This document shows, one piece after another, positions 8,610 to 23,041 of a DNA stretch of 64,000 nt. The stretch's first letter is position 1. Each line of letters starts with the position of its first letter. Under the pieces are notes generated by a model that searched no databases, was not told where the DNA came from, and was given only the letters and a program-made list of their open reading frames with translations. The translations under genes were made by a program, and so were the position numbers. The DNA comes from Rossellomorea aquimaris (GTDB lineage: Bacteria > Bacillota > Bacilli > Bacillales > Bacillaceae_B), in NCBI RefSeq assembly GCF_008180865.1, contig NZ_VTEX01000002.1, forward strand, positions 806,001-870,000, read 5' to 3'.

Positions 8610-8676
8610 TGCGTCTTGTCACCTCCTTCCGATTCAATTGATCGGATGCTGATTTTAAAGGGATGCCGAAACTTAT

Positions 8677-8764
8677 GTACCAGGTACAAACATCATGAAT
8701 GGTGCCTGGTACAAAATCCAAAAATCGTACCCGGTACACCCTTCATGAATCATGCCCGACACGC
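8677..8764. repeat. Periodic GTACC-type cluster, exact 25 bp period
   Basis: Related words start at 8677 (GTACCAGGTACA), 8702 (GTGCCTGGTACA), 8727 (GTACCCGGTACA) and 8752 (ATGCCCGACACG), each exactly 25 bp apart. A TCATGAAT spacer recurs. It lies between the ECF-type promoter at 8789-8816 and the secreted-repeat operon, so it would be in the 5' untranslated RNA. Confidence 0.8.
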
Positions 8765-8788
8765 GCCCTGCATCCAATTTTCATAAAG

Positions 8789-8816
8789 CTAACGAAGGTG
8801 GTTCACGATTGGATCA
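8789..8816 (-). promoter_or_regulatory. ECF-type promoter of the secreted-repeat operon
   Basis: Read on the minus strand: TGATCCA, a 15-bp spacer, then CGTTAGCTTTATGAAAAT. This matches the elements ahead of the ECF sigma gene (18286) and the MPNTG protein gene (19944), including the spacing and the bases after the -10. It lies about 180 bp upstream of the 8609 start, the only minus-strand gene it faces. Confidence 0.8.
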
Positions 8817-9003
8817 CTTTTTTTCAAAAAGTTTTGCAGAAAATTTTTAGAAAAGGATGAATCCGAAAAATTTCCTTTACCCCCTTTTTTCATCAAAAAT
8901 GAGATGTTACAATGTACAACCGTAAGCAATCTTAACGTAGCTCATTCGAAGAGCTAGTCGGAGATTCCAATCAATACTACGCAAAGAAAGGATGTATATT
9001 TCA

Positions 9004-9132
9004 ATGCATATCGGAAGCAAAGGCTGGTACGTAGAAGAACTAAAAAAAGCGGGAGTACGCCGCTACGAAGAACGCAAAGTAGAATCCTACAAAAAACACG
9101 TTCTTGCAAACCTGTTAGAACGTACAAAATAA
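9004..9132 (+). CDS. Small DUF2639 (YflJ-like) protein
   Basis: 42 residues starting MHIGSKGWYVEELKKAGVRR, basic and apparently cytosolic. The N-terminus matches the Bacillus YflJ/DUF2639 family, whose function is unknown. ATG follows AAAGAAAGGATG. The gap from 8817 to 9003 upstream holds an AT-rich promoter region. A strong terminator follows. Confidence 0.85.
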   Translation: MHIGSKGWYVEELKKAGVRRYEERKVESYKKHVLANLLERTK

Positions 9133-9143
9133 GAAGACACAAG

Positions 9144-9206
9144 AGAGGGACGGACCTCGATTCCTATGACCTGGTCATAGGAATGAAGGTCCGTCCCTCT
9201 TTTTTA
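9144..9206. terminator. Long terminator built on the GGTCCGTCCC word pair
   Basis: GAGGGACGGACCT pairs with AGGTCCGTCCCTC, and an inner ATTCCTATGAC/GTCATAGGAAT arm extends the stem. A T run follows on the plus strand. It sits between the DUF2639 gene and the convergent symporter gene. Confidence 0.85.
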
Positions 9207-11030
9207 TTTCAGTAGTTTCGAAGAGTAGATCGGATTCAGGTTTTGTTGCAGGGAGTATTTTTTGGTACGGTTTAGTTTGTATGGTTTGTTTTTGAGCAGG
9301 TAGGCTTGGTATTTCTTGTTCCAGCTTTTTAGTGACCAGAAGATCAGGCCGGTGGTTGTGACAACCAATCCTCCAGTTGCTGGCCAGAAATAGGTTGAAA
9401 TGACACCTGATTCATAGGCCAGTCCGATGGGTGAAAAGATGAAATACGTTTGCACTACGGACGCCATGAGCACAATGGACAATGGGATGCTGTATTTCCA
9501 CGGCATCATATCCACTTTCGGATTATAACGATATTCGTATGGCTTCTTCAATGGCTTCCACCAGCCGATTGCTACCATCAACACAATCTCTGAAACAAAC
9601 AGGATTCCATATATATGAATAAAGTTAATATTGATAGAGAATCCGAATAAATGGCCTGTTCCCCATACAAGCATATAATACGTGAACACGTGAAGAATGA
9701 TCACTGTTTTGGCGGCTAAAGCAGGAATGCGTTTTGAGAACACCCCAACCAATAAAACGACGATAATCGGGATGTTAAAGAACCCTGTGAACTTTCGGAT
9801 CAGATCCCATAAGCCGTCCGTCGCATGAATCAACATTGGTGACACACACATGGAAACGACCGCGAGTGCCGCTCCAAACCACTTACTGATCGAAATTAAT
9901 TTCTGATCACTGACATCCGGGTTGAACTGAGGCTTATAGATATCAAGTGCAAATAACGTCGCTGCACTATTTAACAGGGAATTAAACGAGCTAAGCACCG
10001 CTCCCAGTAACACGGCTAAGAAGAAACCTGTCAGATACCAGGGCAGCACCGCGTTAATCAGTGCCGGATAAGCCAAATCCACACTTTTCAATGAATCTCC
10101 ATAAAGATGAAAAGCAATGACTCCCGGCAGCATCATCATAAACGGAACGAGAAGCTTATAGAATCCTGAAATGATGACACCCTTCTGTCCCTCTGCCAGA
10201 TTCTTCGCTCCTAACGTTCGTTGAATCACGTACTGGTTAGATGCCCAATAAAATAAATTCGCAAAAATCATTCCTGTGAAGATCGTGGAAAACGGAACAG
10301 AATCAGAAGAAGAACCTATTGAGTTCAGCTTTTCCGGGTTGTTCGTGGCAATCTCCTTTACTCCTGATAAGAAACTTCCTTCACCTAAAGCATAAAATCC
10401 TAAAATCGGAACAAGAATCCCGATGATCAAGAGGCCGACCCCGTTTAACGCATCGGAAATGGCAACGGCTTTCAGTCCGCCAAAGATGGCGTAAATGCTG
10501 CCGATGATCCCGATCACCCACACAATCACCCAGATCGATTGAGTATAGGAAATACCCATAAGCCCGGGTACATCAAATAATTTCAACACGGCAAGTGCCC
10601 CTGAATAGAGCATGGATGGAATCGTAACAAATACATACCCGAGCATAAAGAGAATGGTTGTATACTGTCGAACTCCCTTGTCATAACGTTGATTCAGAAA
10701 CTCTGGTAATGTCGTGAAGCTTCTTCCTAAATACTTTGGAAGTAAATACAGGGCCATGATGATAATCGCGATGGCGGCGGTCACTTCCCACGCCATATTT
10801 GAAAGGTTTGCACGGAAGGCTTGTCCGTTTAAACCGACCAGCTGCTCAGCCGATAAGTTCGTTAATAGAAGAGACCCGGCGATGAACGTACCCGTCAGCC
10901 CTCTCCCCGCCAAAAAATATCCTGTCGAATCGTTCAATGATCCTTTAGTCTTAATGTATGAAATCCAAGCAACCAACCCCATAAAAAACACACAAGTCAA
11001 TAGTGTAAACAGCAAACCACTTTCAAACAT
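9204..11030 (-). CDS. Sodium:solute symporter (SSS family, SglT-like)
   Basis: About 608 residues and 13-14 membrane helices, of the SSS family that couples Na+ entry to sugar or related solute uptake. Family features include GGLKAVAISDALNGVGLLIIG and RTLGAKNLAEGQKGV. ATG at 11030 (MFESGL) is preferred over the ATG at 11048 because GGGAAGAGG precedes it and the earlier ATG has no ribosome site. A single gene. No sugar-catabolic neighbours, so the substrate cannot be inferred. Confidence 0.88.
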   Translation of the reverse strand: MFESGLLFTLLTCVFFMGLVAWISYIKTKGSLNDSTGYFLAGRGLTGTFIAGSLLLTNLSAEQLVGLNGQAFRANLSNMAWEVTAAIAIIIMALYLLPKYLGRSFTTLPEFLNQRYDKGVRQYTTILFMLGYVFVTIPSMLYSGALAVLKLFDVPGLMGISYTQSIWVIVWVIGIIGSIYAIFGGLKAVAISDALNGVGLLIIGILVPILGFYALGEGSFLSGVKEIATNNPEKLNSIGSSSDSVPFSTIFTGMIFANLFYWASNQYVIQRTLGAKNLAEGQKGVIISGFYKLLVPFMMMLPGVIAFHLYGDSLKSVDLAYPALINAVLPWYLTGFFLAVLLGAVLSSFNSLLNSAATLFALDIYKPQFNPDVSDQKLISISKWFGAALAVVSMCVSPMLIHATDGLWDLIRKFTGFFNIPIIVVLLVGVFSKRIPALAAKTVIILHVFTYYMLVWGTGHLFGFSININFIHIYGILFVSEIVLMVAIGWWKPLKKPYEYRYNPKVDMMPWKYSIPLSIVLMASVVQTYFIFSPIGLAYESGVISTYFWPATGGLVVTTTGLIFWSLKSWNKKYQAYLLKNKPYKLNRTKKYSLQQNLNPIYSSKLLK

Positions 11031-11239
11031 GCATCCTCTTCCCTTCATATTTATTACATGTGTTTGTGAAAGTTCCCCAAATGTTATACTGGTAAACTAT
11101 TATTTTTGTAATTTTGTTAAAAATAGTAATTTAGATTCACCACGTTTTTCCATGCTTTTCTTTACAAAAAAACTATTGTGATAGTCTTCAGTCATATGAT
11201 AGAGTAGAAAACATATTTCAAATCAACTTCATACGAATT

Positions 11240-11308
11240 CCTTATATATCTATGGTGATATGGACCATAAGTCTCTACCTGGCAGCCGTAAAGTGCCGGA
11301 CTATAAGG
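11240..11308 (+). ncRNA. Purine riboswitch aptamer (guanine type)
   Basis: The three-way junction is intact. P1 is CCTTATA/TATAAGG. P2 is TATGGT/ACCATA with loop GATATGG. The joining strand is AGTCTCTAC. P3 is CTGGCA/TGCCGG with an L3 containing CCGTAAA. The specificity base in GGACTAT is C, which predicts guanine/hypoxanthine rather than adenine. It fits the downstream nucleoside transporter gene. Confidence 0.92.
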
Positions 11309-11357
11309 AAAGTCTTTTCTATATGCTGTTTGTGTATGGAGACTTTCCCTATTTTTT
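11306..11357 (+). terminator. Riboswitch expression-platform terminator
   Basis: GGAAAGTC...GACTTTCC stem followed by TATTTTTT, starting in the last bases of P1. This predicts an OFF switch: purine binding stabilises P1 and lets the terminator form. Confidence 0.82.
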
Positions 11358-11459
11358 AGAGAATGTCTTCATGCACTTTTTTATTTTTCTGAGAGGTCAG
11401 ACATCATACGACGTAAACCTGAGGATTCGTTGAAGATTACATGTTGGGGGATTGGTATT

Positions 11460-12653
11460 GTGAGTTTAATATATGGCATCTTATCATTACTTGGAGTTCT
11501 ATTCTTAGCGTGGCTGTTGAGCAGCAACCGCTCAGCCATTCAATGGCGCACGATCGTCATCGGGATCTGCCTGGAATTCCTGCTTGTCTTGTTTGTATTA
11601 AAAGTCCCATTCGGACAAACCATTTTGAAAAAAGCTGCCTTGGGTGTACAAAAAGTCATCGACTACAGCAATGAAGGAATCATGTTCGTGTTCGGAGGAT
11701 TTTTTGAGAAGGGAACGAATATTTCATTTGTGTTCGCCATCAATGTTCTGGGTGCGATCATCTTTATTTCTGCACTTATTTCAGCACTTTATTACTTGCG
11801 AATCATCCCGTTCTTTGTAAAATATATCGGAATCGGGTTGGGTAAGATCCTTGGGACGACGAAGGTTGAATCGTTTAATGCGATCGGAAATTCTTTTCTT
11901 GGATTAGCTGAAGCCCCCCTTTTGATTAAACCTTATTTAATAAAACTGACGCGTTCTGAACTTTTTGCCGTTATGGTTGGGGGAACTGCTTCAGCAAGTG
12001 GAGCGATATTAATTGGATATTCATTGATGGGAATCGACATGAAATTCCTTCTACTATCCGTCTTCAGTGTGCCGATCGTCTCTCTTGTGATCGCCAAAAT
12101 CATCGAACCTGAAACGGAAGAATCCAAAACGAATGGTGATATTTCATTAGGAAAAACCACTCATACGAACGTATTCGAAGCTATTTCCGAAGGTGCCCTT
12201 AGTGGTACACAGCTGGCCATCAATATTGGTGGACTGCTCATCGCGTTTATCGGGATCCTTGCTCTCGTCAACGGATTACTGGGTGCTGTCGACATGAGTC
12301 TTTCCACGGTCTTCGGCTACCTGTTCTATCCACTTGCACTACTCGTCGGTATTCCGATGGATGAAGCGTTCCATGCTGCCTCCATCATCGGGACGAAGCT
12401 TTCTGTGAATGAATTCGTCGCATACAAAGAGCTATCAGGATTGATGAGCGAGCTTTCACCAAAGACCGTTGCGATTCTTTCCGTTGCCCTTTGTAACTTT
12501 GCGAACCTGTCTTCGATCGGACAATTGATTGTCGGATTGGGTTCTTTAGAGCCGACACAGCGTCCGATGGTTTCTAAGTTAAGCTTGAAAGCCATCATTG
12601 CCGGTACACTGGCAAGCTTCATAACGGCCATTATCATTAGTATATTTCTATAA
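11460..12653 (+). CDS. NupC/NupG-family nucleoside transporter
   Basis: 397 residues. A concentrative nucleoside transporter that imports purine nucleosides with protons or Na+. Family marks are SSNRSAIQWRTI near the N-terminus, GNSFLGLAEAPLLIKPY and LCNFANLSSIGQ. An in-frame TTG at 11430 has a GAGG site, but GTG at 11460 follows GGGGG with 8-nt spacing and gives the usual family N-terminus, so I use it. Controlled by the guanine-type riboswitch upstream, as in B. subtilis nupG. Confidence 0.9.
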   Translation: MSLIYGILSLLGVLFLAWLLSSNRSAIQWRTIVIGICLEFLLVLFVLKVPFGQTILKKAALGVQKVIDYSNEGIMFVFGGFFEKGTNISFVFAINVLGAIIFISALISALYYLRIIPFFVKYIGIGLGKILGTTKVESFNAIGNSFLGLAEAPLLIKPYLIKLTRSELFAVMVGGTASASGAILIGYSLMGIDMKFLLLSVFSVPIVSLVIAKIIEPETEESKTNGDISLGKTTHTNVFEAISEGALSGTQLAINIGGLLIAFIGILALVNGLLGAVDMSLSTVFGYLFYPLALLVGIPMDEAFHAASIIGTKLSVNEFVAYKELSGLMSELSPKTVAILSVALCNFANLSSIGQLIVGLGSLEPTQRPMVSKLSLKAIIAGTLASFITAIIISIFL

Positions 12654-12745
12654 CTTTTTCTCGCGATTATGTTTCTTCCGACCGCCTTTAGTGAATAGTA
12701 TAAGGTAGCAATCTTTTTGCACATTGATAACGGAAGGTGAATTCA

Positions 12746-13249
12746 TTGAGAGAAAAAAAGTTTATGAAAGAAACGAAAACAAGTAAAACGACCCACGTTC
12801 TTCCACCCGACACCAACCATCATGGTACATTGTTTGGTGGAAAACTGATGGCCTATATAGACGACGTGGCCTCCATTGCCGCTACCCGTCACGCCCGTAA
12901 GCCCGTCGTAACGGCTTCAACAGATTCCGTCGACTTCCTGCAACCCATAAAAGTCGGGGATGCCGTCACGTTGGAAGCTATGGTTACCTACACGGGTCGC
13001 AGCTCCATGGAGGTTTGTGTGAAGGTCACTTCAGAGGTGCTTCTAACAGGAGAAACCAATGTGGCAGCCATCTCCTTCTTGACCTTTGTTGCTTTAGAAG
13101 GCAATAAACCAGCCGTCATTGCGGAAGTCGTACCGGAAACAGAAGAAGAAAAATGGCTGAACGAAACCGCCAAGAACCGTGCCGAGCACCGCAAAGCACG
13201 CAAAAAACATAGTCAGGAGCTTGCGGAGTTTTTCCGTAAAGCGTATTGA
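12746..13249 (+). CDS. ykhA: Acyl-CoA thioesterase, YkhA-like hotdog protein
   Basis: 167 residues. Hydrolyses acyl-CoA thioesters in the cytosol. The hotdog fold is marked by LPPDTNHHGTLFGGKLMAYID and ATRHARKPVVTASTDSVDF; the conserved Asn/His/Gly-rich segment lies at the active site. TTG at 12746 follows GGAAGGTGA with suitable spacing; an ATG at 12764 is an alternative. It has a charged Lys/Arg-rich tail. Single gene with its own terminator. Confidence 0.88.
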   Translation: MREKKFMKETKTSKTTHVLPPDTNHHGTLFGGKLMAYIDDVASIAATRHARKPVVTASTDSVDFLQPIKVGDAVTLEAMVTYTGRSSMEVCVKVTSEVLLTGETNVAAISFLTFVALEGNKPAVIAEVVPETEEEKWLNETAKNRAEHRKARKKHSQELAEFFRKAY

Positions 13250-13255
13250 TGAAGG

Positions 13256-13288
13256 GGAGATGCTTGTAGAGAGCATCTCTTTTTTTTG
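13256..13288 (+). terminator. Terminator after the thioesterase gene
   Basis: GAGATGCT/AGCATCTC stem followed by eight Ts. Confidence 0.88.
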
Positions 13289-13300
13289 TGGAAGAGTCCG

Positions 13301-13487
13301 TTCGCCGTTATCTTGGAATCCGGTCTCCTGCCGAATATTAATCGTACGAAATTTCATAGCCTAAATTAATACGACGAATCAGCACTTCGCTGATATATGT
13401 GGAATTCCGCTGATAAAACGTAAATTCCGCTGATATCTTGCGTCCGATGTCTAAAACGCTTCTCATTTCCCGTCCAAAATCCATCCC
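13301..13487. repeat. Intergenic repeat, copy A, with CGCTGATA period 20
   Basis: Related to 16536-16748 in the same order. Both begin TTCGCCGTTATYTTGGA, carry CGCTGATA words and end AAATCCATCCC. CGCTGATA starts at 13388, 13408 and 13428, exactly 20 bp apart. The rest of the 13250-13763 gap is AT-rich with a possible minus-strand membrane reading frame that I do not call. Confidence 0.75.
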
Positions 13488-13691
13488 CTCCCCCTTTTCC
13501 GATCATATCAATTGTAGTTCCACACCAGATAATTGTAATTATCCATTTTAGTTGCCGAATCCCCCCAAATAATGGTGAATATCCAATTAACATTACCAAA
13601 CCAATGTACACAACCACCTTCCACACCACATACTCACTCTGAAAACTCCAATCATCCCCACAACATTTTTTTCCCTCCTCCCCTTCAAAAT

Positions 13692-13726
13692 AGGTCCGTC
13701 CCTCCGATAATACAGAGGTACGGACA
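13692..13726. other. Imperfect word-pair hairpin ahead of the lipoprotein gene
   Basis: AGGTCCGTCCCTC at 13692-13704 is followed by GAGGTACGGACAT at about 13714, a degenerate inverted partner. It could act as a terminator or structured leader upstream of the TTG start at 13764. Confidence 0.5.
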
Positions 13727-13763
13727 TGTGAATGTCTCAATATTTATTTTTGGAGGTAACGGT

Positions 13764-14741
13764 TTGAAGAAGTTAATCAGCGTGTTTCTTCTTGTCATGC
13801 TTGTTGTGGCGGGATGTTCCACACCTATGACGGAAGAAGCGAGTGTAGAAAAGCAGCAGAGTATTGGAATCCTTCTCTCTGACACAGGGCTTGGGGATGG
13901 ATCGTTTAACGATTCGGCATTTAGAGGATTAGAACGGGCCAGGGATGAATTAGGTATTTTATTTGATTATAGAGAAGCACCGGACGGAAACTTTGAAGAA
14001 GCACTCCAGGAGCTTGTCGATCAGAACCATGAGCTTGTGATCGGCCTTGGATTTTCGATTCAAGATGCTATTGAAAAGATTGCAAAAGAAAATCCTGATC
14101 AGAAATTTCTATTGATAGACGGATCCTCAGATGTGGATAACATCACATCGATTACGTTTAAAGAACATGAAGGCAGCTTCCTTCTCGGTATGGTGGCAGC
14201 TATGAAATCAAAAAGCAACACGATTGGATTCATTAGTGGAGCCGATGTTCCTGTTATTCAACGATTTGAAAAAGGGTTTGAACAAGGTGCTCAGTATATC
14301 AATCCTTCCATAAAGGTATTGAAAGACAACGCCGACAATTTTGGTGACGCTGAGCTTGGTGGGAAAATAGCTGAGAACCAAATGAAACAAGGCGCAGACT
14401 TTATTTATCCTGCCGCTGGTTTTACAGGAGTGGGAGCGATTCAGGCTGCGCAAAAAGCAGGCATTTTATCTGGAGGGGTCGACTCGGATCAATACTTCAT
14501 TGCCGAAAAGTCGGTTGTCACGTCCATGGTCAAAAAAGTTGATAACGCGGTATTCAACATAACAAAAGAACTTATTTCAAATCAAAAAATAACTCAACAA
14601 GCCTATGAGCTGGGGCTCAAGGAAGATGGCGTGGGATTAGCCCCCATTCGTGTGACCAGCTTGTCTCCTGAAGAAACAAAACAACTAGAAGACGCTAAAA
14701 ACAAAATCATCTCTGGGGACATTAACATTAAATTGCAATAA
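13764..14741 (+). CDS. BMP/PnrA-like solute-binding lipoprotein
   Basis: 325 residues. A type II signal peptide with lipobox VVAGC anchors it outside the membrane. The mature part is a basic-membrane-protein/PnrA-like binding protein ([21 protein letters not shown] near the N-terminus; the family binds nucleosides). TTG at 13764 follows TGGAGGTAACGG; the open frame further upstream is not coding. It is followed 22 bp later by a chemoreceptor gene with no intervening terminator and no ABC permease or ATPase genes. I infer a role in sensing rather than uptake. Confidence 0.87.
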
Positions 14742-14763
14742 ATCTCAACTAAGGAGTATTCTC

Positions 14764-16422
14764 ATGGCATTAAAAAGACGTTTACTGATTTTGGGACTTA
14801 TCCCCCTTATCCTTTCGACGATTATCATTGGGTACATCGTCTCTCAACTGATTTCTCTTCAAAATTCTGCAAATGAAGATGTACAAGTACTTCTTGAAAC
14901 AGAGACATTGCGGGGAGATTTGAATGTGGCAAAGCAGGCACTATCCAATTACTCCGTCAATTCAACAGCAGAAAATAAACAAATCGTAGAGGGCATTCTG
15001 GAAGAAACATCTACGCAGATCTCAGATTTAAAAAAGCTTTTGACAATTAAAGATCAGCAAGAAACCCTTTCCTCCATCGAGGCGAAATTCACAGATTTGA
15101 AGACTGCATCAGATGCAGCTCTCACTGAAATGAACAAAGCGGAGATCAAACGACAGTCGATCCGCATCTCCGGCGTCCTGAACGATATGTATCTATTAAC
15201 GAAACAAACAAATGATTGGTATCAAAGCCTTTTAAAAGAAAACAAGAGGCAAATTGAATTTATTGTATGGGTGTCGGTGATCGGGTTTATCTTAACCATC
15301 ATCCTATCCATGGCAGCATCTACCTTATTGACACAGCGAATAGTTAAGCCTTTAAACATTATGGTGGATAACGCTGAAAAGATGGCCAATGGTGATTTAA
15401 CGATTTCAGTTGAGTCGGTTAAAGAGAAAAACAGTAAATTTGAAGTGGACAAACTCCAAACCGCTTTTCACCATATGGTTCTGAACCTGCGGAGTACGGT
15501 TCAATCCGTCCATGATATCGGATCAAATGTAGAGAAGTTCACCCAGGATGTACGCTCACAAATGACGAGTTTGGCAGAAAGCAGCAACCAGGTGGCGATT
15601 TCGACTGAAGAACTGGCAAAAGGAAGTCAATCCATCTCTGAAGATATCCAGTCAACGGCTGCTTTAATGTCTCTGATGGGTGATGATTTTGCCCAGAATG
15701 TGAGACAAAGCGGAGAATCATCCGCTAGCAGTAAAGTGGCATTGGATTCGGTTGAGCATGGCCGGGCATCCTTAAATAAGCAGCAGGAATTTGCTGAAAT
15801 GATCGCCGAATCTTCTTCATCCATCATGGATTCCATCGAACACTTTGCCCAATATACCGGTGAAATTGAACATGCTTCCCATGCGGTAAGGGAAATTGCC
15901 GATCAAACAAATCTCTTAGCACTAAACGCAGCAATCGAAGCAGCCAGAGCCGGGGACGCAGGAAAAGGATTCGCCGTCGTTGCCCAGGAAGTCCGAAAAC
16001 TGGCAGAAGATTCATCCGTTGCAACCGAGCGAATCGGTAACATGGTCGGAAATATCAAAAATGGCATTCACTCTATTATGGAAGCTTCTCAAAAGGGGAA
16101 ATCCCTTTCTACTCAGCAAGTGGACTCCATGAGTGTGACAGAGAATGCGTTTAAAGACATATCCGGAAACGTTTCAACCATTTATGAAAATTTAGTACAA
16201 CTTGAAAATGGTATGCAAGCTTCGAATGAGCGTACCCATCAGGTGATTGCAGCCATTGAAAACATCTCGGCGATCACAGAGGAAACCGCTGCCGGAACGG
16301 AAGAAATTTCTTCTTCTACCGAAGAGCAGCTGAGGTACTTCGAACAAATGAATGAACAAGTAGGAAAATTGAACGTAATGACAGCAGAAATGAAAAAAGA
16401 ATTGGAGCGGTTTACGCTTTGA
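14764..16422 (+). CDS. Methyl-accepting chemotaxis protein
   Basis: 552 residues. A transmembrane chemoreceptor signalling to CheA/CheW: TM1 about 7-27, an extracellular four-helix sensor (28-165), TM2 166-187, HAMP about 190-245, and a long coiled coil with the conserved hairpin [20 protein letters not shown] near residues 376-395. ATG follows AAGGAG. The sensor is of the 4HB_MCP type with no obvious small-molecule pocket, which fits reading a partner binding protein. Co-transcribed with the lipoprotein upstream. Confidence 0.92.
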
Positions 16423-16429
16423 TAATGGG

Positions 16430-16458
16430 AAAATGCCTCCTGGTGGGGCATTTTTTTG
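16430..16458 (+). terminator. Terminator of the lipoprotein-chemoreceptor operon
   Basis: AAATGCC/GGGCATTT stem followed by seven Ts, 8 bp after the stop. Confidence 0.85.
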
Positions 16459-16497
16459 TTTGATAGATCGATTGAAATTGAAGGGGTTTCGGCCGTT

Positions 16498-16748
16498 CGC
16501 CGTTATATTGAAAGTATCGCCGTTAAAACGGGATTTTCGCCGTTATTTTGGATTCCGCTCACCTGTTGCTTATTCATAGTTTGAGAATTCATCCAGGTGA
16601 GGTAGTTTCATAGTCACCGTTTCAGCCGTTCGCTGATATATGTGGAATTTCGCTGATATATCGAATATTCCGCTGATAAAATGCAAATTTCGCAGATATC
16701 TTGTTTTCAATGCCTAAACTCTCCTTCTTTACCTACTAAATCCATCCC
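16498..16748. repeat. Intergenic repeat, copy B, two word clusters with 20 bp period
   Basis: CGCCGTTA starts at 16498, 16518 and 16538. CGCTGATA-type words start at 16631, 16651, 16671 and 16691. All steps are exactly 20 bp. Positions 16536-16748 match copy A at 13301-13487, with one extra 20-bp unit. The remaining gap to 17188 is AT-rich; a possible minus-strand 62-codon frame at 16707-16895 is not called. Confidence 0.78.
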
Positions 16749-17188
16749 ATCTTCTTTCAACCTATCAGAGTAATGGCGATTATACCCGGAAGATAATATA
16801 AATATTATCGAAGTCAAAAGAAATACACTACCTACTACAAGAGTCCCCGTCCCCTCCATTTTCACCCAAGCACCATCCCATATAACCACTCCCATGTCCC
16901 GAACTCCCCCTTCACCACCTTCCGACTACTCCAAACATCCCTATCTATATTACAGAACGTTTAAATTTTTTTAACGAACAAAAAATCAAGGTCCGTTCCT
17001 ACGTACCCATACAGGTATACAAAACCCCTCCATCACACACTTTCATTTTTTTAAAAACGCTTTCACTTCTGTCATACTTTGTAATAATTTGTCGGTGGTA
17101 AATATCTCCACCTACATAACCCTCAAAAATCTCCTATACTGTATAGAAGGTTATACTGTCTAGAATTCTTATAGTTGGAGGAATATTG

Positions 17189-18193
17189 ATGTTATCAAAC
17201 TCTGAAATTGGTATCGATTTAGGAACTGCAAATATACTTGTTTATAGTAAAAATAAAGGAATTATACTTAATGAACCTTCTGTTGTCGCGATCGACACAG
17301 AGAATAAAACGGTCTTGGCGGTTGGAACTGAAGCCAAGAGCATGATCGGGAAAACGCCAGGGAAAATCGTGGCTGTGCGCCCGCTTAAAGATGGTGTGAT
17401 TGCCGACTTTGATGTGACAACTGAAATGTTAAAACAAGTGATGAAAAAAGCGAGTAAAAAACTTGGATTCTCTATCCGCAAGCCAACGGTTGTCGTTTGT
17501 ACGCCTTCTGGTGCAACAAGTGTCGAGAGAAGAGCGATTCAGGATGCCGTAAGAGGAAGCGGTGCGAAATCCGTGACTCTTATTGAAGAACCTGTAGCTG
17601 CTGCCATCGGTGCTGATTTGCCTGTAGGTGAGCCTGTTGCCAACGTAATCGTTGATATCGGTGGTGGAACGACGGAAGTAGCGATCATCTCTTACGGTGG
17701 CGTTGTTTCCTGTAACACGATCCGTATCGGTGGAGATCAAATGGATGAAGATATTGTTCAGTACGTTCGCAAACGTTACAATCTGTTGATTGGTGAAAGA
17801 ACCGCTGAATTAGTGAAAATCGAAGTGGGTCAAGCACTGATCGACCATGAAGAAAGAACGATGGATATTCGTGGACGTGACCTTGTGACGGGCCTTCCAA
17901 AAACGATCGAACTATCATCCAATGAAATTCAGGATGCGTTGAAAGAATCTCTTCTTCACATCCTGGAAACGATCCGTGCGACATTGGAAAATTGTCCTCC
18001 TGAACTAAGTGGGGACATTGTCGACCGCGGTGTGATTCTGACTGGAGGCGGAGCACTTCTGAACGGACTTCAAGATTGGTTGAGCCAGGAAATCGTCGTA
18101 CCGGTTCACTTAGCTCCAAACCCGCTGGAATCAGTGGCCATCGGCACAGGACGTTCCCTATCCGTGATTCACAAGTTACAAAAAGTAAAATAA
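17189..18193 (+). CDS. mreBH: MreB-like actin homologue MreBH
   Basis: 334 residues. An actin-like cytoskeletal protein that directs lateral wall synthesis and autolysin placement. Nucleotide-binding motifs [19 protein letters not shown] (phosphate 1), [14 protein letters not shown] (phosphate 2) and [14 protein letters not shown] are intact. The N-terminus matches B. subtilis MreBH rather than MreB or Mbl. ATG at 17189 follows TTGGAGGAATATTG. A single gene, not in the mreBCD cluster, as expected for mreBH. In B. subtilis it is under SigI; I could not identify a convincing SigI promoter here. Confidence 0.92.
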
Positions 18194-18197
18194 ACAC

Positions 18198-18230
18198 GAG
18201 GTATCCCCCATTTCATTGGGGGATATTTTA
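18198..18230 (+). terminator. mreBH terminator
   Basis: GTATCCCCC/GGGGGATA(T) stem with a 7-nt loop, followed by TTTTATT. Confidence 0.85.
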
Positions 18231-18285
18231 TTATCAATCCGAAACTCCCCTATTTACCCCACTAACATTTTTTTCAAACATTTAT

Positions 18286-18312
18286 GATCCAAAATCTAAT
18301 TCCATTCGTTAG
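18286..18312 (+). promoter_or_regulatory. ECF-type promoter of the sigma/anti-sigma operon
   Basis: TGATCCA (GATCCA 18286-18291), a 15-bp spacer, CGTTAG (18307-18312), then CTTATTAAAAT. It lies about 70 bp upstream of the ECF sigma gene, as expected for autoregulation. It shares sequence and spacing with 8789-8816 and 19944-19970. Confidence 0.82.
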
Positions 18313-18382
18313 CTTATTAAAATTGAGTTCCTAACCGTTGTTTAGTATCCTTATTTTATATGTCAAAGATAAGGAGCGTAAT

Positions 18383-18946
18383 ATGCCCAATGATCGACAC
18401 GATTTAGAACTGTATCAGCAAGTTTTAGCCAAAGATTCAACAGCATTACGACAACTTTATCAACAATACGAAAAACTGATTTATTCTTTCTCTTATAAAA
18501 TGACAGGTGATCGGGAAATTGCAGAGGAAGTGATTCAAGAGGTATTTATGAAACTCTGGAAAAAGCACTCTCCCTATGACCACAATAAAGGAAAATTTTC
18601 ATCATGGCTGTTAACGATGACGAGAAATACGTGCCTTGATGCGCTCCGCAGGCGAAAGAAACATGAGTCTGTTGAATATATAGAGAAAGACTCCCTGCAG
18701 GTGACCCATGAGACTCCTGCCGATCAGTTGGAATGGAAAGAAAAAGGAGCAGCGATTCGGGAGTGTATCCAGTCGTTGAAAGATGAACAGCAAAACATTG
18801 TACAATTATTCTATTTCAAAGGGTTGACTCAACAATCCATTGCCGATTCCACTGACATTCCACTAGGGACTGTCAAAGGAAGAATTCGTTTGGCGCTAAA
18901 GCATTTACACACGTGTCTTAAAGGGAAAGGAGGTCAATTCGAATGA
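18383..18946 (+). CDS. ECF sigma factor
   Basis: 187 residues. An extracytoplasmic-function sigma factor: region 2 about 24-90 (EEVIQEVFMKLW, WLLTMTRNTCLDALRRRKK) and region 4 about 125-180 (QQNIVQLFYFKGLTQQSIAD, LGTVKGRIRLALKHL). ATG at 18383 follows AAGGAGCGTAAT; the longer frame from 18338 lacks a ribosome site. The stop overlaps the anti-sigma start by four bases (ATGA), so the pair is translationally coupled. The ECF subgroup is not assigned. Probably autoregulated from the promoter at 18286. Confidence 0.93.
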   Translation: MPNDRHDLELYQQVLAKDSTALRQLYQQYEKLIYSFSYKMTGDREIAEEVIQEVFMKLWKKHSPYDHNKGKFSSWLLTMTRNTCLDALRRRKKHESVEYIEKDSLQVTHETPADQLEWKEKGAAIRECIQSLKDEQQNIVQLFYFKGLTQQSIADSTDIPLGTVKGRIRLALKHLHTCLKGKGGQFE

Positions 18947-19659
18947 CTACACACCAATGCGATTACTTACTGGATTACTACAACGGTCATTTATCTGAAC
19001 TTGAGAGAGCCCAATTTGAAAAACATCTGGAAAGCTGCCCACAGTGTCAGGAAGAACTTCATGAACTGGAGCAGTTAGCAGAATATATGCCTTTCGCATC
19101 TGATGTTGTCGAGCCTCCTAAAGACCTGGAAGACCGTGTTTTGGCTAACATTCTGAGTGAAGAGAAGCCAAAGGCTAACGTCCAACCTTTCTCCACTAAG
19201 AAAAAGAGATCATGGTTCCTCCCTTCTGTCGCAGCTGCCCTGGCCCTTTCCTTAATCGGGAATGCGTATCTGTTTACACAGCTCGAGGACCAGAACGAAG
19301 TGGTTGAACAAGCAACCATCGATCAGGTAGTACAATATGTCGACCTCGCTGCCGTCAGTGGAAATGCAAAGGGTACAGCAAGTATCATCAAGCAGGGGGA
19401 ACAAACAAGCATGGTGGTCCAGGCTTCTGAGCTTCAGGGTCTTTCTGACGAAGAAGTGTATCAGGTCTGGCTCATTAAAGATGATAAACCTGAGCGTGCC
19501 GGAACATTTGTCACGAGTAAGGATGGCAAAGGATCGGTTGTATTCAAGTTTAACGAAGAGTTCACGAAGAAAGATTGGGATACGGTGGCCATCACCCTCG
19601 AGCCCGATGCGAACAGCCAGCTACCTCAAGGGGAGATTGTTTTAGCCTCGGAAATATAA
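18943..19659 (+). CDS. Zinc-finger, RskA-like transmembrane anti-sigma factor
   Basis: 238 residues. The N-terminal cytosolic zinc anti-sigma domain has H28, C32 and C35 (HLESCPQCQEEL). One membrane helix spans about 91-111. The extracellular C-terminal domain (about 130-238) looks like RskA, with VYQVWLIKDDKPERAGTFV. It holds the sigma factor at the membrane until an envelope signal, likely via proteolysis by analogy with RskA. The last residues before the stop are ASEI; a strong terminator follows. Confidence 0.9.
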   Translation: MTTHQCDYLLDYYNGHLSELERAQFEKHLESCPQCQEELHELEQLAEYMPFASDVVEPPKDLEDRVLANILSEEKPKANVQPFSTKKKRSWFLPSVAAALALSLIGNAYLFTQLEDQNEVVEQATIDQVVQYVDLAAVSGNAKGTASIIKQGEQTSMVVQASELQGLSDEEVYQVWLIKDDKPERAGTFVTSKDGKGSVVFKFNEEFTKKDWDTVAITLEPDANSQLPQGEIVLASEI

Positions 19660-19683
19660 AAAAAGTTCAATAAATGTTTTTCG

Positions 19684-19716
19684 CCCGGCAGTCCAGTACT
19701 GCCGGGCTTTTTTATT
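19684..19716 (+). terminator. Terminator of the sigma/anti-sigma operon
   Basis: GCCCGGCAG/CTGCCGGGC with a 7-nt loop, then six Ts. Confidence 0.92.
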
Positions 19717-19943
19717 TCTATTGATGATTATTTCGTTTTTTTGTCTATCGAAATGTTCGAGAAATTCGCACCAGGGAATTAAGTCCTATGTAACAGAGGA
19801 TATACAAATGTTAAACAATATCTATTCGTTATTCATTTCTACTTTTTATATGGCTACATAGTAGAATACCCCCTATCCTTGTTATCTTTTACACCCTACT
19901 TTTCACCCCTATTAAAAAATAATAGAAAAAATTCAAAAAATGT

Positions 19944-19970
19944 GATCCATGTTTGAACTTCTGTCGTTAG
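19944..19970 (+). promoter_or_regulatory. ECF-type promoter of the MPNTG surface-protein gene
   Basis: TGATCCA (GATCCA 19944-19949), a 15-bp spacer, CGTTAG (19965-19970), then CTTTATGAAAAT. It lies 40 bp ahead of the gene start. The remainder of the 19717-20010 gap is AT-rich with no convincing gene. Confidence 0.83.
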
Positions 19971-20010
19971 CTTTATGAAAATATAAAAAAAAAAAAGGAG
20001 CGATTCAATT

Positions 20011-21363
20011 ATGAAAATGAAAAAAAGTTATTTAGCCGTCCCTTTAAGTATGACATTACTAGTACCGACTGTAGGTACAGTTTCAGCCCACAACGGCGAA
20101 GATCATTCACACGAGGTGAAAGTGGATACTCCAGCAGGAGAATTAAGAACAACATTGGACCATTTACTTACTGAGCATGCATACTTAGCGGTGGAAGCGA
20201 TGAGACGCGGAGCTGAAGGAGCTGAAGATTTTGACGCAGCAGCCGGTGCCCTGAATGATAACGCAGCCGATTTAAAAGGAGCGATCGCTTCTGTATACGG
20301 TGAAGAAGCCGGTAATCAATTCAACACAATCTGGACGAATCACATCGGATTCTTCGTTGATTATGTAAAAGCTACAGGTGCTGATGATCAAGCGGCGAAA
20401 GACGAAGCACTTGCAAATCTTGCAGGCTACAAAGAAGAGTTCTCTAACTTCCTTGAAACGGCAACTGGTGAACGATTAAAATCTGATAGTTTGGCAGAAG
20501 GACTTCAAATGCATATCAACCAACTGATCGGTGCTTTTGATAGTTATGTAGCCGGTAACTATGAAAAGGCTTACGAATACGAGCGTGAGGCTATCGGACA
20601 TATGGGAATGGTATCAAAAGGATTATCAAGCGCCATCACGGATCAATATCCTGACAAATTCGAAAATACCATGGCTGTTACTCCGGCAACGGATTTACGT
20701 TCAACTCTTAACCACTTATTAACAGAGCATGCTGCCCTTGCAACGATGGCCATGCAAAACGGGATTGACGGATCAGAAGATTTCGATGCTTCTGTTGGTG
20801 CCCTGAATGCAAATACCGACGACCTGTCTGCAGCAATCGCTTCTGTATACGGTGAAGAAGCAGGTAACCAGTTCAAAGACATGTGGTCCAAGCATATCGG
20901 GTTTTTCGTTGATTATGTGAAAGCAACAGGTACTGAAGATGAAGCAGCAAAAGAAGAAGCCCTTAAGAACCTTGATGGATATCGTGCAGAATTCTCCAAA
21001 TTCCTTGAAACGGCAACGGACGGTCGTTTAAAATCTGACGCCTTAGCAGAAGGACTTCAAATGCACGTGGATCAACTGATTGGAGCATTCGACAGCTATG
21101 CTGCCGGTGATTATGAAAAATCCTGGGATCAAATCCGTATGGCATATGAGCATATGCTGAATCCTGCAAAAGGATTATCAGGAGCATTTGCTGATCAGTT
21201 CCCTGACAAATTCAAAGCCAATATGCCTTCTGAAATGCCAAACACCGGTATGGGTGGAACAGCCGGAAATGAATTCCCATTCGAATTCCTTCTTGCAGCT
21301 CTGCTGATCATCGCTGGTGGAACCACACTAGGAATGAAAAAATACGCTACACACAAAAAATAA
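20011..21363 (+). CDS. Cell-wall-anchored, internally duplicated His-rich helical protein
   Basis: 450 residues. Signal peptide 1-26 (ending TVSA), then HNGEDHSHE. Two similar helical domains of about 175 residues follow, 45-222 and 229-404. Five histidines are conserved between them: H51/H235, H56/H240, H111/H295, H168/H352 and H197/H381, in segments such as HLLTEHA, HIGFFVDYVKATG and EGLQMH. The C-terminus has MPNTG (409-413), a hydrophobic stretch and a KKYATHKK tail, a variant LPXTG sortase signal. Start ATG follows AAAAAGGAG. The conserved helical His and Glu suggest metal or haem binding, which is unproven. Not a family I can name. Under the ECF-type promoter. Confidence 0.88.
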   Translation: MKMKKSYLAVPLSMTLLVPTVGTVSAHNGEDHSHEVKVDTPAGELRTTLDHLLTEHAYLAVEAMRRGAEGAEDFDAAAGALNDNAADLKGAIASVYGEEAGNQFNTIWTNHIGFFVDYVKATGADDQAAKDEALANLAGYKEEFSNFLETATGERLKSDSLAEGLQMHINQLIGAFDSYVAGNYEKAYEYEREAIGHMGMVSKGLSSAITDQYPDKFENTMAVTPATDLRSTLNHLLTEHAALATMAMQNGIDGSEDFDASVGALNANTDDLSAAIASVYGEEAGNQFKDMWSKHIGFFVDYVKATGTEDEAAKEEALKNLDGYRAEFSKFLETATDGRLKSDALAEGLQMHVDQLIGAFDSYAAGDYEKSWDQIRMAYEHMLNPAKGLSGAFADQFPDKFKANMPSEMPNTGMGGTAGNEFPFEFLLAALLIIAGGTTLGMKKYATHKK

Positions 21364-21375
21364 TAGGAAAAGATG

Positions 21376-21405
21376 AGAGGGACGGACCTATTAAGGTCCG
21401 TCCCC
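21376..21405. terminator. Compact word-pair terminator
   Basis: AGAGGGACGGACCT, a 4-nt loop region, then AGGTCCGTCCCC form a 12-bp hairpin 12 bp after the surface-protein stop. No clear T run, so it may act as a hairpin barrier rather than a full terminator. Confidence 0.65.
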
Positions 21406-21961: not shown

Positions 21962-23041
21962 TTAATAAGGCGCATCCTGATAGAAATAATTCGTCGAATT
22001 CCACGTATTGTCGTACTCTTTATGAAATATATGAGTCGCTGCCGGGGACACAGGTGGTATCAACCATGTCCAATCCCCGGTCACATCACGGTCGGCGCTC
22101 TTCTCGTTCTCTTCAAACAAGCGGAACTGCTGGGCAGCCGTATGATGATCCACGATGCTTACCCCATCTTCTTTAAAGGAATGGAGCACGGCGATATTCA
22201 ACTCGATCAGCGCTTTATCTTTCCACAACGTTGCCGCCCTCGACATATCCAACCCCATGCAGCTCGCTACTTTCGGCAGAAGATTATAGCGGTTCTCATC
22301 CGCAAGATTCCGTGCGCCGATTTCCGTCTCCATATACCAGCCGTTAAACGGAGCTGCTTTATATGAGATGCCCCCGATTTTCAATTCCATATCAGAAATG
22401 ATCGGAACTCCATACCACTTCAACCCCAAATCCTGGAACCAGTCAAACTCAGGGTGGCGTAGAGGAACCTCCAACTTAAGTCGGGATTCAATCTCTTTCC
22501 ACTGTGGAGGTCCGTCCCCGATTTGCACGACGAAAGGCAGGACATCAAAGTCAGTCCCCTGCCCTTTCCAGCCAAGCTCCTCGCATTTCTTCGTAAAACC
22601 GATGGAATGCGGGTCTCCTGCATACTGCCCATCCTCCACATAGCCGGCATATCTGATCAATTGATGATTCCATAGTCTGATGTCAGGCTGCTGTGGCTGA
22701 GACGGTCTGAAGATGGTAATCGTCGGACGGATTCTACCATTATTGGAAGCATAGTCGAGGTGGCGCTTTAACGCACCGAAAACCTCGTCCTCCGTCGACG
22801 CTTCCCTTTCGTCAAACACGTTCAACGAATTCCAGAACAAGCGGCCGATGCAGCGATTGCTATTTCTCCACGCCATCTTGGCTCCGTGTACAAGCTCTTC
22901 TCTTGTATGAGTATAGGTTCCTTCTGTTCTTAGTTCATCTTCTATTTGTTGTAAGCGCAGCATCATGTCTTGCACGCTTTTATTTAATTCCTGATAACAT
23001 TGCTCAATGAACGCCCTCGCCTCATCCAAAATCTGTGTCAA
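21962..23041 (-). CDS. nos: Bacterial nitric oxide synthase (oxygenase)
   Basis: 359 residues. Makes NO and citrulline from arginine via N-hydroxyarginine, using a cellular reductase. The haem thiolate is C64 in [12 protein letters not shown]. Other family segments are [15 protein letters not shown] and [10 protein letters not shown]. As in other Bacillus, there is no reductase domain. TTG at 23041 follows GGGAAG and gives a normal family N-terminus. A GGGACGGACC word (22509-22518) encodes part of GDGPP. The window also holds hmp and nsrR 21 kb away, so both NO production and NO defence are present. Confidence 0.95.

Follow-up and report, generated by a model that had tools for sequence, protein, structure and literature searches.

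A probable, conserved SigK/RskA-like ECF sigma regulon, with wall-sorted surface proteins and a class-F-like sortase as predicted targets, in Rossellomorea aquimaris and other Bacillales

Autoregulated extracytoplasmic function (ECF) sigma switches are a known kind of regulatory system. In the Bacillales, autoregulated sigma/anti-sigma operons serving envelope genes include those of SigW, SigM, SigX and SigV, and that of SigP in Bacillus thuringiensis; the −35 element of B. subtilis-type ECF sigmas is TGAAAC. The promoter consensus of Mycobacterium tuberculosis SigK is CCATCC..CCGAAT. Here we analyze a 64,000-nucleotide stretch of the Rossellomorea aquimaris genome (contig NZ_VTEX01000002.1, positions 806,001 to 870,000; hereafter the window), in which an ECF sigma operon, a gene for a putative wall-sorted protein (P3) and a pair of secreted-protein genes (P4 and P5) stand behind copies of one motif, TGATCCA-N15-CGTTAG. 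From sequence comparison and structure prediction, these genes very probably belong to a SigK/RskA-like ECF regulon, conserved and autoregulated, whose products are wall-anchored six-helix-bundle proteins and a sortase of their own.

The nearest known system is SigK-RskA of M. tuberculosis (group ECF19), which offers the closest solved relative of the window sigma factor and an anti-sigma factor with an RskA_C domain. As excerpted, PMC7509140 describes a small SigK regulon of eleven genes, including mpt70 and mpt83, with autoregulation; the window regulon would likewise be small and autoregulated. The same excerpt places a cysteine pair, 133/183, in 94% of ECF18 and 56% of ECF19 members. Two cysteines of the window sigma, 50 residues apart, align with a SigK pair also 50 apart, which we take to be that Cys133/Cys183 pair. 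There are differences too. The window anti-sigma has a zinc-finger motif, whereas M. tuberculosis RskA lacks one according to the excerpted text of PMC7406223. The predicted targets are MPxTG proteins and sortases rather than MPT70 and MPT83. Finally, the promoter TGATCCA..CGTTAG is unlike the SigK consensus. The Bacillales systems named above share the autoregulated operon, but B. subtilis has no RskA_C match, and the window −35 element, TGATCC, is not TGAAAC.

P3 resembles LPxTG proteins in its signal peptide, sorting motif, hydrophobic stretch and basic tail. It differs in having Met for Leu, and its homologues mostly read MPxTG[ML]GG, that is, GMGG or GLGG past the motif. P3-linked sortases score best as class F, yet under the curated cut-off, and they come from Bacillales, whereas the class F examples in the excerpted part of a 2026 paper (PMC13251363) are actinobacterial. 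That excerpt calls the physiological roles of class F sortases unknown and reports no phenotypic change on deletion of four of them in Actinoplanes. No description of the regulon was recognised in searches of open PubMed Central papers; the 2021 ECF reclassification, which lay outside those searches, may contain the group or the motif.

The sigma operon and its promoter motif

The sigma gene (18383..18946, + strand) encodes a 187-residue protein with Pfam domains Sigma70_r2 and Sigma70_r4_2. Regions 2 and 4 alone, in about 190 residues, are the layout of an ECF (group 4) sigma-70 factor. The best of the 16 PDB sequences is M. tuberculosis SigK (4nqw_A, E 2.9e-20), and the NCBIfam SigK model ranks second, under its cut-off. 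The next gene (18943..19659, +) encodes an RskA-type anti-sigma factor of class I layout: Pfam finds zf-HC2 and RskA_C (69.9 bits), and one membrane stretch is seen by eye. This is the only RskA_C match in the genome (E ≤ 0.001); among 14 control genomes only those of Synechococcus and Deinobacterium match, B. subtilis being one of the others. SigK as nearest relative together with an RskA-type anti-sigma is the ECF18/ECF19 arrangement, and by sequence the nearest relatives found are SigK-like (ECF18/19) factors. The original prediction, made from the letters of the window, had seen no likeness to any described ECF group, which was overstated. The window sigma carries the SigK-like pair as Cys128/Cys178; among 64 Bacillales sigma proteins it is found in just 15.

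ECF promoter 1, TGATCCA-N15-CGTTAG (18285..18312, +), lies 70 bp upstream of the sigma ATG; promoter 2 (19943..19970, +) lies 40 bp upstream of P3, and promoter 3 (8789..8816, −) 179 bp upstream of P4. Thus, at the sequence level, the sigma factor's own promoter is of the target-promoter type, as in an autoregulated operon. The core GATCCA-N15-CGTTAG occupies 18286-18312, 19944-19970 and, on the minus strand, 8815-8789. A search for GATCCA-N{13,17}-CGTTAG found these three places in the window, all N15; shuffled windows averaged 0.02 matches, and 0 of 100 shuffles reached three. The prediction of three copies with 15 bp spacing, ahead of the sigma/anti-sigma operon, the MPNTG protein (P3) and a secreted operon (P4-P5), is thereby borne out. 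Two details needed amendment. The minus copy had been placed at 8810-8789, and with its leading T it spans 8816-8789. Similarity was said to continue past the −10 element; it is exact in two copies (CGTTAGCTTTATGAAAAT), and the third, CGTTAGCTTATTAAAAT, is one base out of register.

Across the genome (4,736,414 bases), the exact TGATCCA-N15-CGTTAG occurs only at the three window places, and the reversed control of the core pattern gives no match. Allowing up to two mismatches raises the count to 100, and the reversed pattern then yields 80, so that weak matches amount to background and only strong ones are meaningful. A fourth exact GATCCA..CGTTAG match has N16 spacing and lies within an open reading frame (ORF) on the opposite strand. 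Of four one-mismatch sites, two run antisense within ORFs and no ORF was found downstream of a third; the last, TGATCCA-N15-CGTTAT, stands upstream of a P3 paralogue, P3′ (C10:691760-693070), some 122 kb away from the closest site of the window. This last copy, outside the window, had been missed.

Between its promoter and the start codon, the P4 leader shows, by eye, several inverted repeats centred on GGTAC (8640-8765). They are possibly a regulatory RNA element; the segment has no Rfam match at gathering score.

Conservation of the sites and co-variation with the sigma factor

In a set of 36 genomes of the genus, sites of N14–N16 spacing were assigned when within 420 bp upstream of sigma, P3 or P4 matches. 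Exact sites occur in 31 of the 36 genomes, and the reversed pattern gives three matches in the same set. There are 76 sites, 69 of them N15 and seven N14 or N16. The N15 sites precede the sigma gene (30), P3 (25), P4 (10) or other genes (four), so that 65 of 69 fall at the three gene families, and none of the seven N14/N16 sites does. The four others comprise three sites 17–24 bp upstream of a DoxX gene and one before a NUDIX-looking gene. Some P3 genes have two or three sites; in L079, L080 and L105 (genomes G033, G010 and G008) these are tandem, about 80–105 bp apart before one P3, and one reads TGATCCG.

The sigma gene is found in 32 of the 36 genomes (E ≤ 1e-30), and three of the 32 copies are broken or partial (G002, G011, G012, at loci L158, L070 and L163, respectively). 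The P3 of G012 is decayed too, so sigma and target may be lost together. G018 and G028 lack sigma, site and P3 alike. DoxX relatives occur in 10 of 61 genomes, at 11 places, with none in the strain's own genome. Among the ten places other than L328, a site scoring 11–13 accompanies L322–L327 and L329, and the second copy in G055 (L332) and the distant L330 and L331 have none.

Beyond the genus, a P3-alignment search of named genomes confirmed at least 393 relatives, and the best 80 were kept as P3 loci. Up to 330 bp upstream of each was scanned, with a score out of 13 motif bases and two controls. The score is at least 12 in 61 of the 80 loci, at least 11 in 67 and at least 10 in 74; the controls give 0 and 0 at 11 or above, and 0 and 2 at 10 or above. 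The 61 high-scoring loci span 19 genus names, including Halobacillus, Pontibacillus, Pseudalkalibacillus, Jeotgalibacillus, Metabacillus and Paenisporosarcina. The 80 loci include twelve from close relatives of the window (at least 80% on P3), which overlap the genus set, so that the counts are not independent cases. Among 72 P3 sites the free bases are T81 T86 A82 G78 C97 T85 (per cent); the first five bases of TGATCCA and the −10 CG are invariant as required by the selecting pattern. N16 spacing occurs at some P3 genes outside the genus.

Of the 80 P3 stretches, 63 contain a match to sigma (tblastn, E ≤ 1e-12). The promoter of this sigma gene scores at least 11 in 33 of the 63 and at least 10 in 46, levels at which both controls are 0, and at least 9 in 59 (controls 11 and 15). 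In L180–L182, L187, L189, L217, L221, L088 and L090, the sigma promoter has −35 ACATCCA and the P3 promoter TGATCCA; ACATCCA is perhaps a weaker autoregulatory promoter. Sites in distant relatives also precede genes for a CHRD protein with MPQTG (L114), a YtkA-like lipoprotein (L108), DoxX (L112), a DUF4383 protein (L115) and a solute-binding protein (L118, and L120 by likeness). These candidate targets, found in one or two genomes each, are leads.

The −10 element varies jointly at the two promoters of a genome. Of 55 loci with both promoters, 41 have the same first four −10 bases at P3 and at sigma, against 24.0 ± 2.9 for shuffled pairs, and 0 of 10,000 shuffles reach 41. Without ten Rossellomorea-clade loci, agreement is 31 of 45 against 16.6 ± 2.9. 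Pairing took the best −35-like word and then CG, which may have let in spurious sites among the weak sigma ones. Within the genus, G030 has CGATAG at both promoters.

A residue of the sigma factor follows the same base. Residue 82 belongs to the TRN82T stretch in sigma region 2 and is Asn in the window sigma. It aligns with an Asn of SigW, and the corresponding Asn of E. coli sigma-E lines the −10 pocket. In 64 sigma proteins (the window and 63 loci), residue 82 is Tyr in 11 of 11 CGA genomes and Asn or His in 48 of 53 CGT genomes, the remainder being two Tyr and three gaps; L169, whose P3 site is CGTTAG, was counted with CGT. The position was chosen from this set and then tested on 24 further loci, in which it is Tyr or Phe in 5 of 5 CGA cases and Asn or His in 19 of 19 CGT cases (Fisher p 2e-5). 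Judged by length, the contigs of two of these loci, L088 and L089, had already entered the first set as L182 and L212; leaving these two CGT loci out gives 5 of 5 and 17 of 17 (hand-calculated p about 4e-5). The −10 labels of the 24 were assigned by hand, that of L087 from the sigma promoter. Tyr or Phe with CGA recurs in G030, of the same genus, in G041, G070, G071 and G109, and in Halobacillus. Shared ancestry inflates these statistics.

Surface proteins and the sortase

P3 (20011..21363, +) has a signal peptide by eye, two six-helix repeats and an MPNTGMGG wall-sorting tail with a basic end; a hydrophobic helix is predicted at residues 424–448 (pLDDT mostly below 50). Signal peptide and C-terminal sorting signal together mark a sortase substrate, and anchoring is putative. 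AlphaFold2 predicts two six-helix units (about 41–212 and 225–402) and a poorly predicted C-terminal helix, with mean pLDDT 83; one unit alone gives pLDDT 95. P3 has no Pfam match at E ≤ 0.001, 23 homologues have no consistent Pfam match, there is no sequence relative in the PDB, and a PDB fold comparison of the six-helix repeat gave no clear relative. The P3 of R. aquimaris JM7 is 98% identical to that of the window.

Forty-nine homologues were aligned (A2: the window and 48 of the 80 loci, with L245, which has a stop, and, for brevity, L175, L178, L181, L186 and L192 among those left out). The invariant residues are Arg46, Glu55, His56, Asn84, Tyr96, Trp108, His111, Tyr118, Tyr140, His168 and His197, and they stay invariant when 49 first and 13 second repeats are aligned together (A4). 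The four conserved histidines of each unit suggest a metal or cofactor site. Since each repeat keeps them, the job of P3 is perhaps metal or redox related.

This bears on what the regulon is for. P3 could act on metals or in redox chemistry at the surface, and the regulon could respond to metals or redox conditions at the envelope instead of making an adhesive or structural coat, a serious possibility to which we nevertheless give distinctly less than an even chance. Beyond the Glu55-His56 pair and the other three histidines, with their second-repeat counterparts, that are invariant in the 49 close homologues, it draws on the DoxX, YtkA-like and CHRD proteins as further targets in some genomes, on a plastocyanin/azurin gene that adjoins P3 on a Planococcus plasmid, and on the SigK cysteine pair retained by the window sigma. 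That pair is, however, confined to the 15 of 64 proteins noted above, no enzyme or metal-site family matched P3, and His197 and its counterpart vary in the wider set of 23 homologues. Nor does the name of the plasmid-borne relatives help: NCBI calls them copper amine oxidases, a name for which Pfam gives no support in P3.

The sortase is the other half of the proposed pair. It lies 3′ of P3, on the same strand and within 700 bp, in 41 of the 80 loci, and elsewhere in the stretch with its own site in six (Salinicoccus, Alkalibacillus). In three relatives P3 and the sortase are apart and the sortase has its own site (L109 and L111, score 13; L091, score 12); in L113 only the C-terminal part of the sortase is recognised. 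Four of the proteins match NCBIfam class F (NF033748) best, at 132–144 bits against a cut-off of 166, and also Pfam Sortase; since the best class falls below its cut-off, we call them class-F-like. A Planococcus lenghuensis plasmid carries the pair under the NCBI names "copper amine oxidase" and "class F sortase", with TGATCTA-N15-CGTTTA upstream.

In the window itself, alignment to JM7 reveals a class-F-like sortase remnant 3′ of P3 (21438..21606, +) with an internal deletion and a lost frame: about 35 codons are in frame from 21438, then eight bases are lost, and about half a kilobase is absent. The original prediction had the P3 gene and missed this remnant. The genome has three MPxTG-GG coding sites and three sortases, and two of the sites directly adjoin a sortase gene. 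One sortase is 61 bp 3′ of P3′, the two standing under the fourth site; one follows an MPETG DUF4397 protein outside the regulon; and one is class D. Since the window's own copy is broken and an intact one stands beside P3′, P3 in this strain may rely on the sortase made with P3′. The DUF4397 protein and its sortase (L279:4648-6068, that is, C10:68648-70068) form a second MPxTGMGG protein/sortase pair, with no TGATCC promoter by eye; sortases 80–86% identical to this one occur in L282, L284 and L298.

P4 (7398..8609, −) is secreted, by eye, and ends in a conserved ..YYDQWLNAPPSQPP.. motif. Immediately 3′ of it, P5 (5813..7396, −) encodes a secreted acidic repeat protein, also by eye, and a P5-like gene follows P4 in two relatives inspected. 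Neither protein has a family match in library searches. P4-like genes of the QWLNAPP type also occur at L313 and L314 (G043, G088), in a family that lacks both this sigma and an exact site; thus, the P4 family extends beyond the regulon.

Elsewhere in the window, a purine riboswitch (11222-11323, +; Rfam RF00167, 84 bits) lies upstream of a NupC-type nucleoside transporter gene. One GGACGGACC..GGTCCGTCCC hairpin, seen by eye at about 9140-9205 and again at 21375-21405, has the appearance of a terminator-like dispersed repeat. Near the P3 operon, a candidate bacterial nitric oxide synthase oxygenase was recognised by eye (21962-23041, −).

The proposed regulon and its alternatives

We propose that, at rest, the membrane-bound RskA-type anti-sigma would hold the sigma factor and that an envelope signal would free it. 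RNA polymerase with this sigma would then read TGATCCA-N15-CG(T/A)TAG ahead of its own operon, giving positive feedback, and ahead of the MPxTG surface proteins P3 and P3′. Further targets, differing between species, would be the P4-P5 pair, a DoxX membrane protein, the class-F-like sortase and other exported proteins. The sortase would be expected to cleave MPxTG and attach P3 to the wall. What we infer is that transcription starts from the sites, that the sortase anchors P3 and that an envelope signal releases sigma.

The original prediction of a dedicated, autoregulated regulon of exported proteins gains from the comparative data: within the genus the sites are nearly confined to these genes, the site is retained at homologous genes in many Bacillales genera, the P3 and sigma promoters within a genome shift their −10 element jointly, and residue 82 of sigma follows the −10 base, which holds as well in another genome set that is mostly distinct. 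The genome-wide search for the exact motif and the look for the linkage in related genomes, both named as checks, bore it out. Surface remodelling was right in direction and is narrowed here to predicted wall anchoring by a class-F-like sortase.

Several observations weigh against such a regulon. Thirteen of the 80 P3 homologues score below 11; five of the six Exiguobacterium loci are among them, with neither TGATCCA nor a sigma gene in the stretch retrieved. Of 63 sigma promoters, 17 fall short of 10, a level reached by controls, and some sites paired in the −10 agreement test are weak. Sigma orthology comes from best tblastn matches rather than a tree, and related genomes are not independent. 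Two CGT genomes, L187 and L200, have Tyr at residue 82. Within the genus, G002 keeps P3′ and a good site though its close sigma orthologue is a fragment, G011 has three sites and a disrupted sigma, and P3-like genes at 56–58% identity in G008 and G009 have no site. As to the sortase, the window's cis copy is broken, the gene is elsewhere without a site in 10 of the 80 loci (counting L170, whose P3 has a stop and whose sortase actually follows P3), and none was found in the fetched stretches of 23. A P3 copy on a Planococcus versutus plasmid has no such site, and no sortase is among its listed neighbours.

The case of G002, where P3′ keeps a good site although the close sigma orthologue is not intact, is also what would be expected if the sites were real ECF promoters read by another sigma, or by several, the adjacent one being one reader among others; ECF promoters are known to overlap. 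We consider this improbable, as the P3 and sigma promoter sites co-vary, the site tracks residue 82 of the adjacent sigma, including in G030, G041, G070, G071 and G109, and sigma, P3 and site are all absent from G018 and G028. That the element is an operator for a repressor or activator is more improbable still: two blocks at fixed spacing, with a nearly invariant −35 part, could bind a protein, but the element lies in a single orientation, mostly 17–80 bp before start codons (further for P4 and some others), its CG(T/A) element and fixed spacing resemble ECF promoters, N14/N16 never occurs at the genus target genes, though N16 does at some P3 genes elsewhere, and the element tracks a sigma residue.

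We thus favor an autoregulated SigK/RskA-like regulon read by its own sigma. A more specific proposal, for which we claim only a little less than an even chance, is that a Bacillales-wide SigK/RskA-like switch, controlling a dedicated class-F-like sortase along with its MPxTG substrate as one self-contained module, would respond to an envelope signal by laying down a wall-anchored coat of histidine-bearing six-helix-bundle proteins, a new family, for dealing with metals or redox stress at the surface, and that promoter and sigma would have been re-tuned repeatedly through residue 82 and one −10 base.

The regulon would bring together, in many Bacillales genomes, a class-F-like sortase, its likely substrate and their regulator. 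It would also give a regulatory context to the P3 family, a large family with a misleading enzyme name. Finally, the sigma/−10 variants may offer a natural series for the study of promoter recognition.

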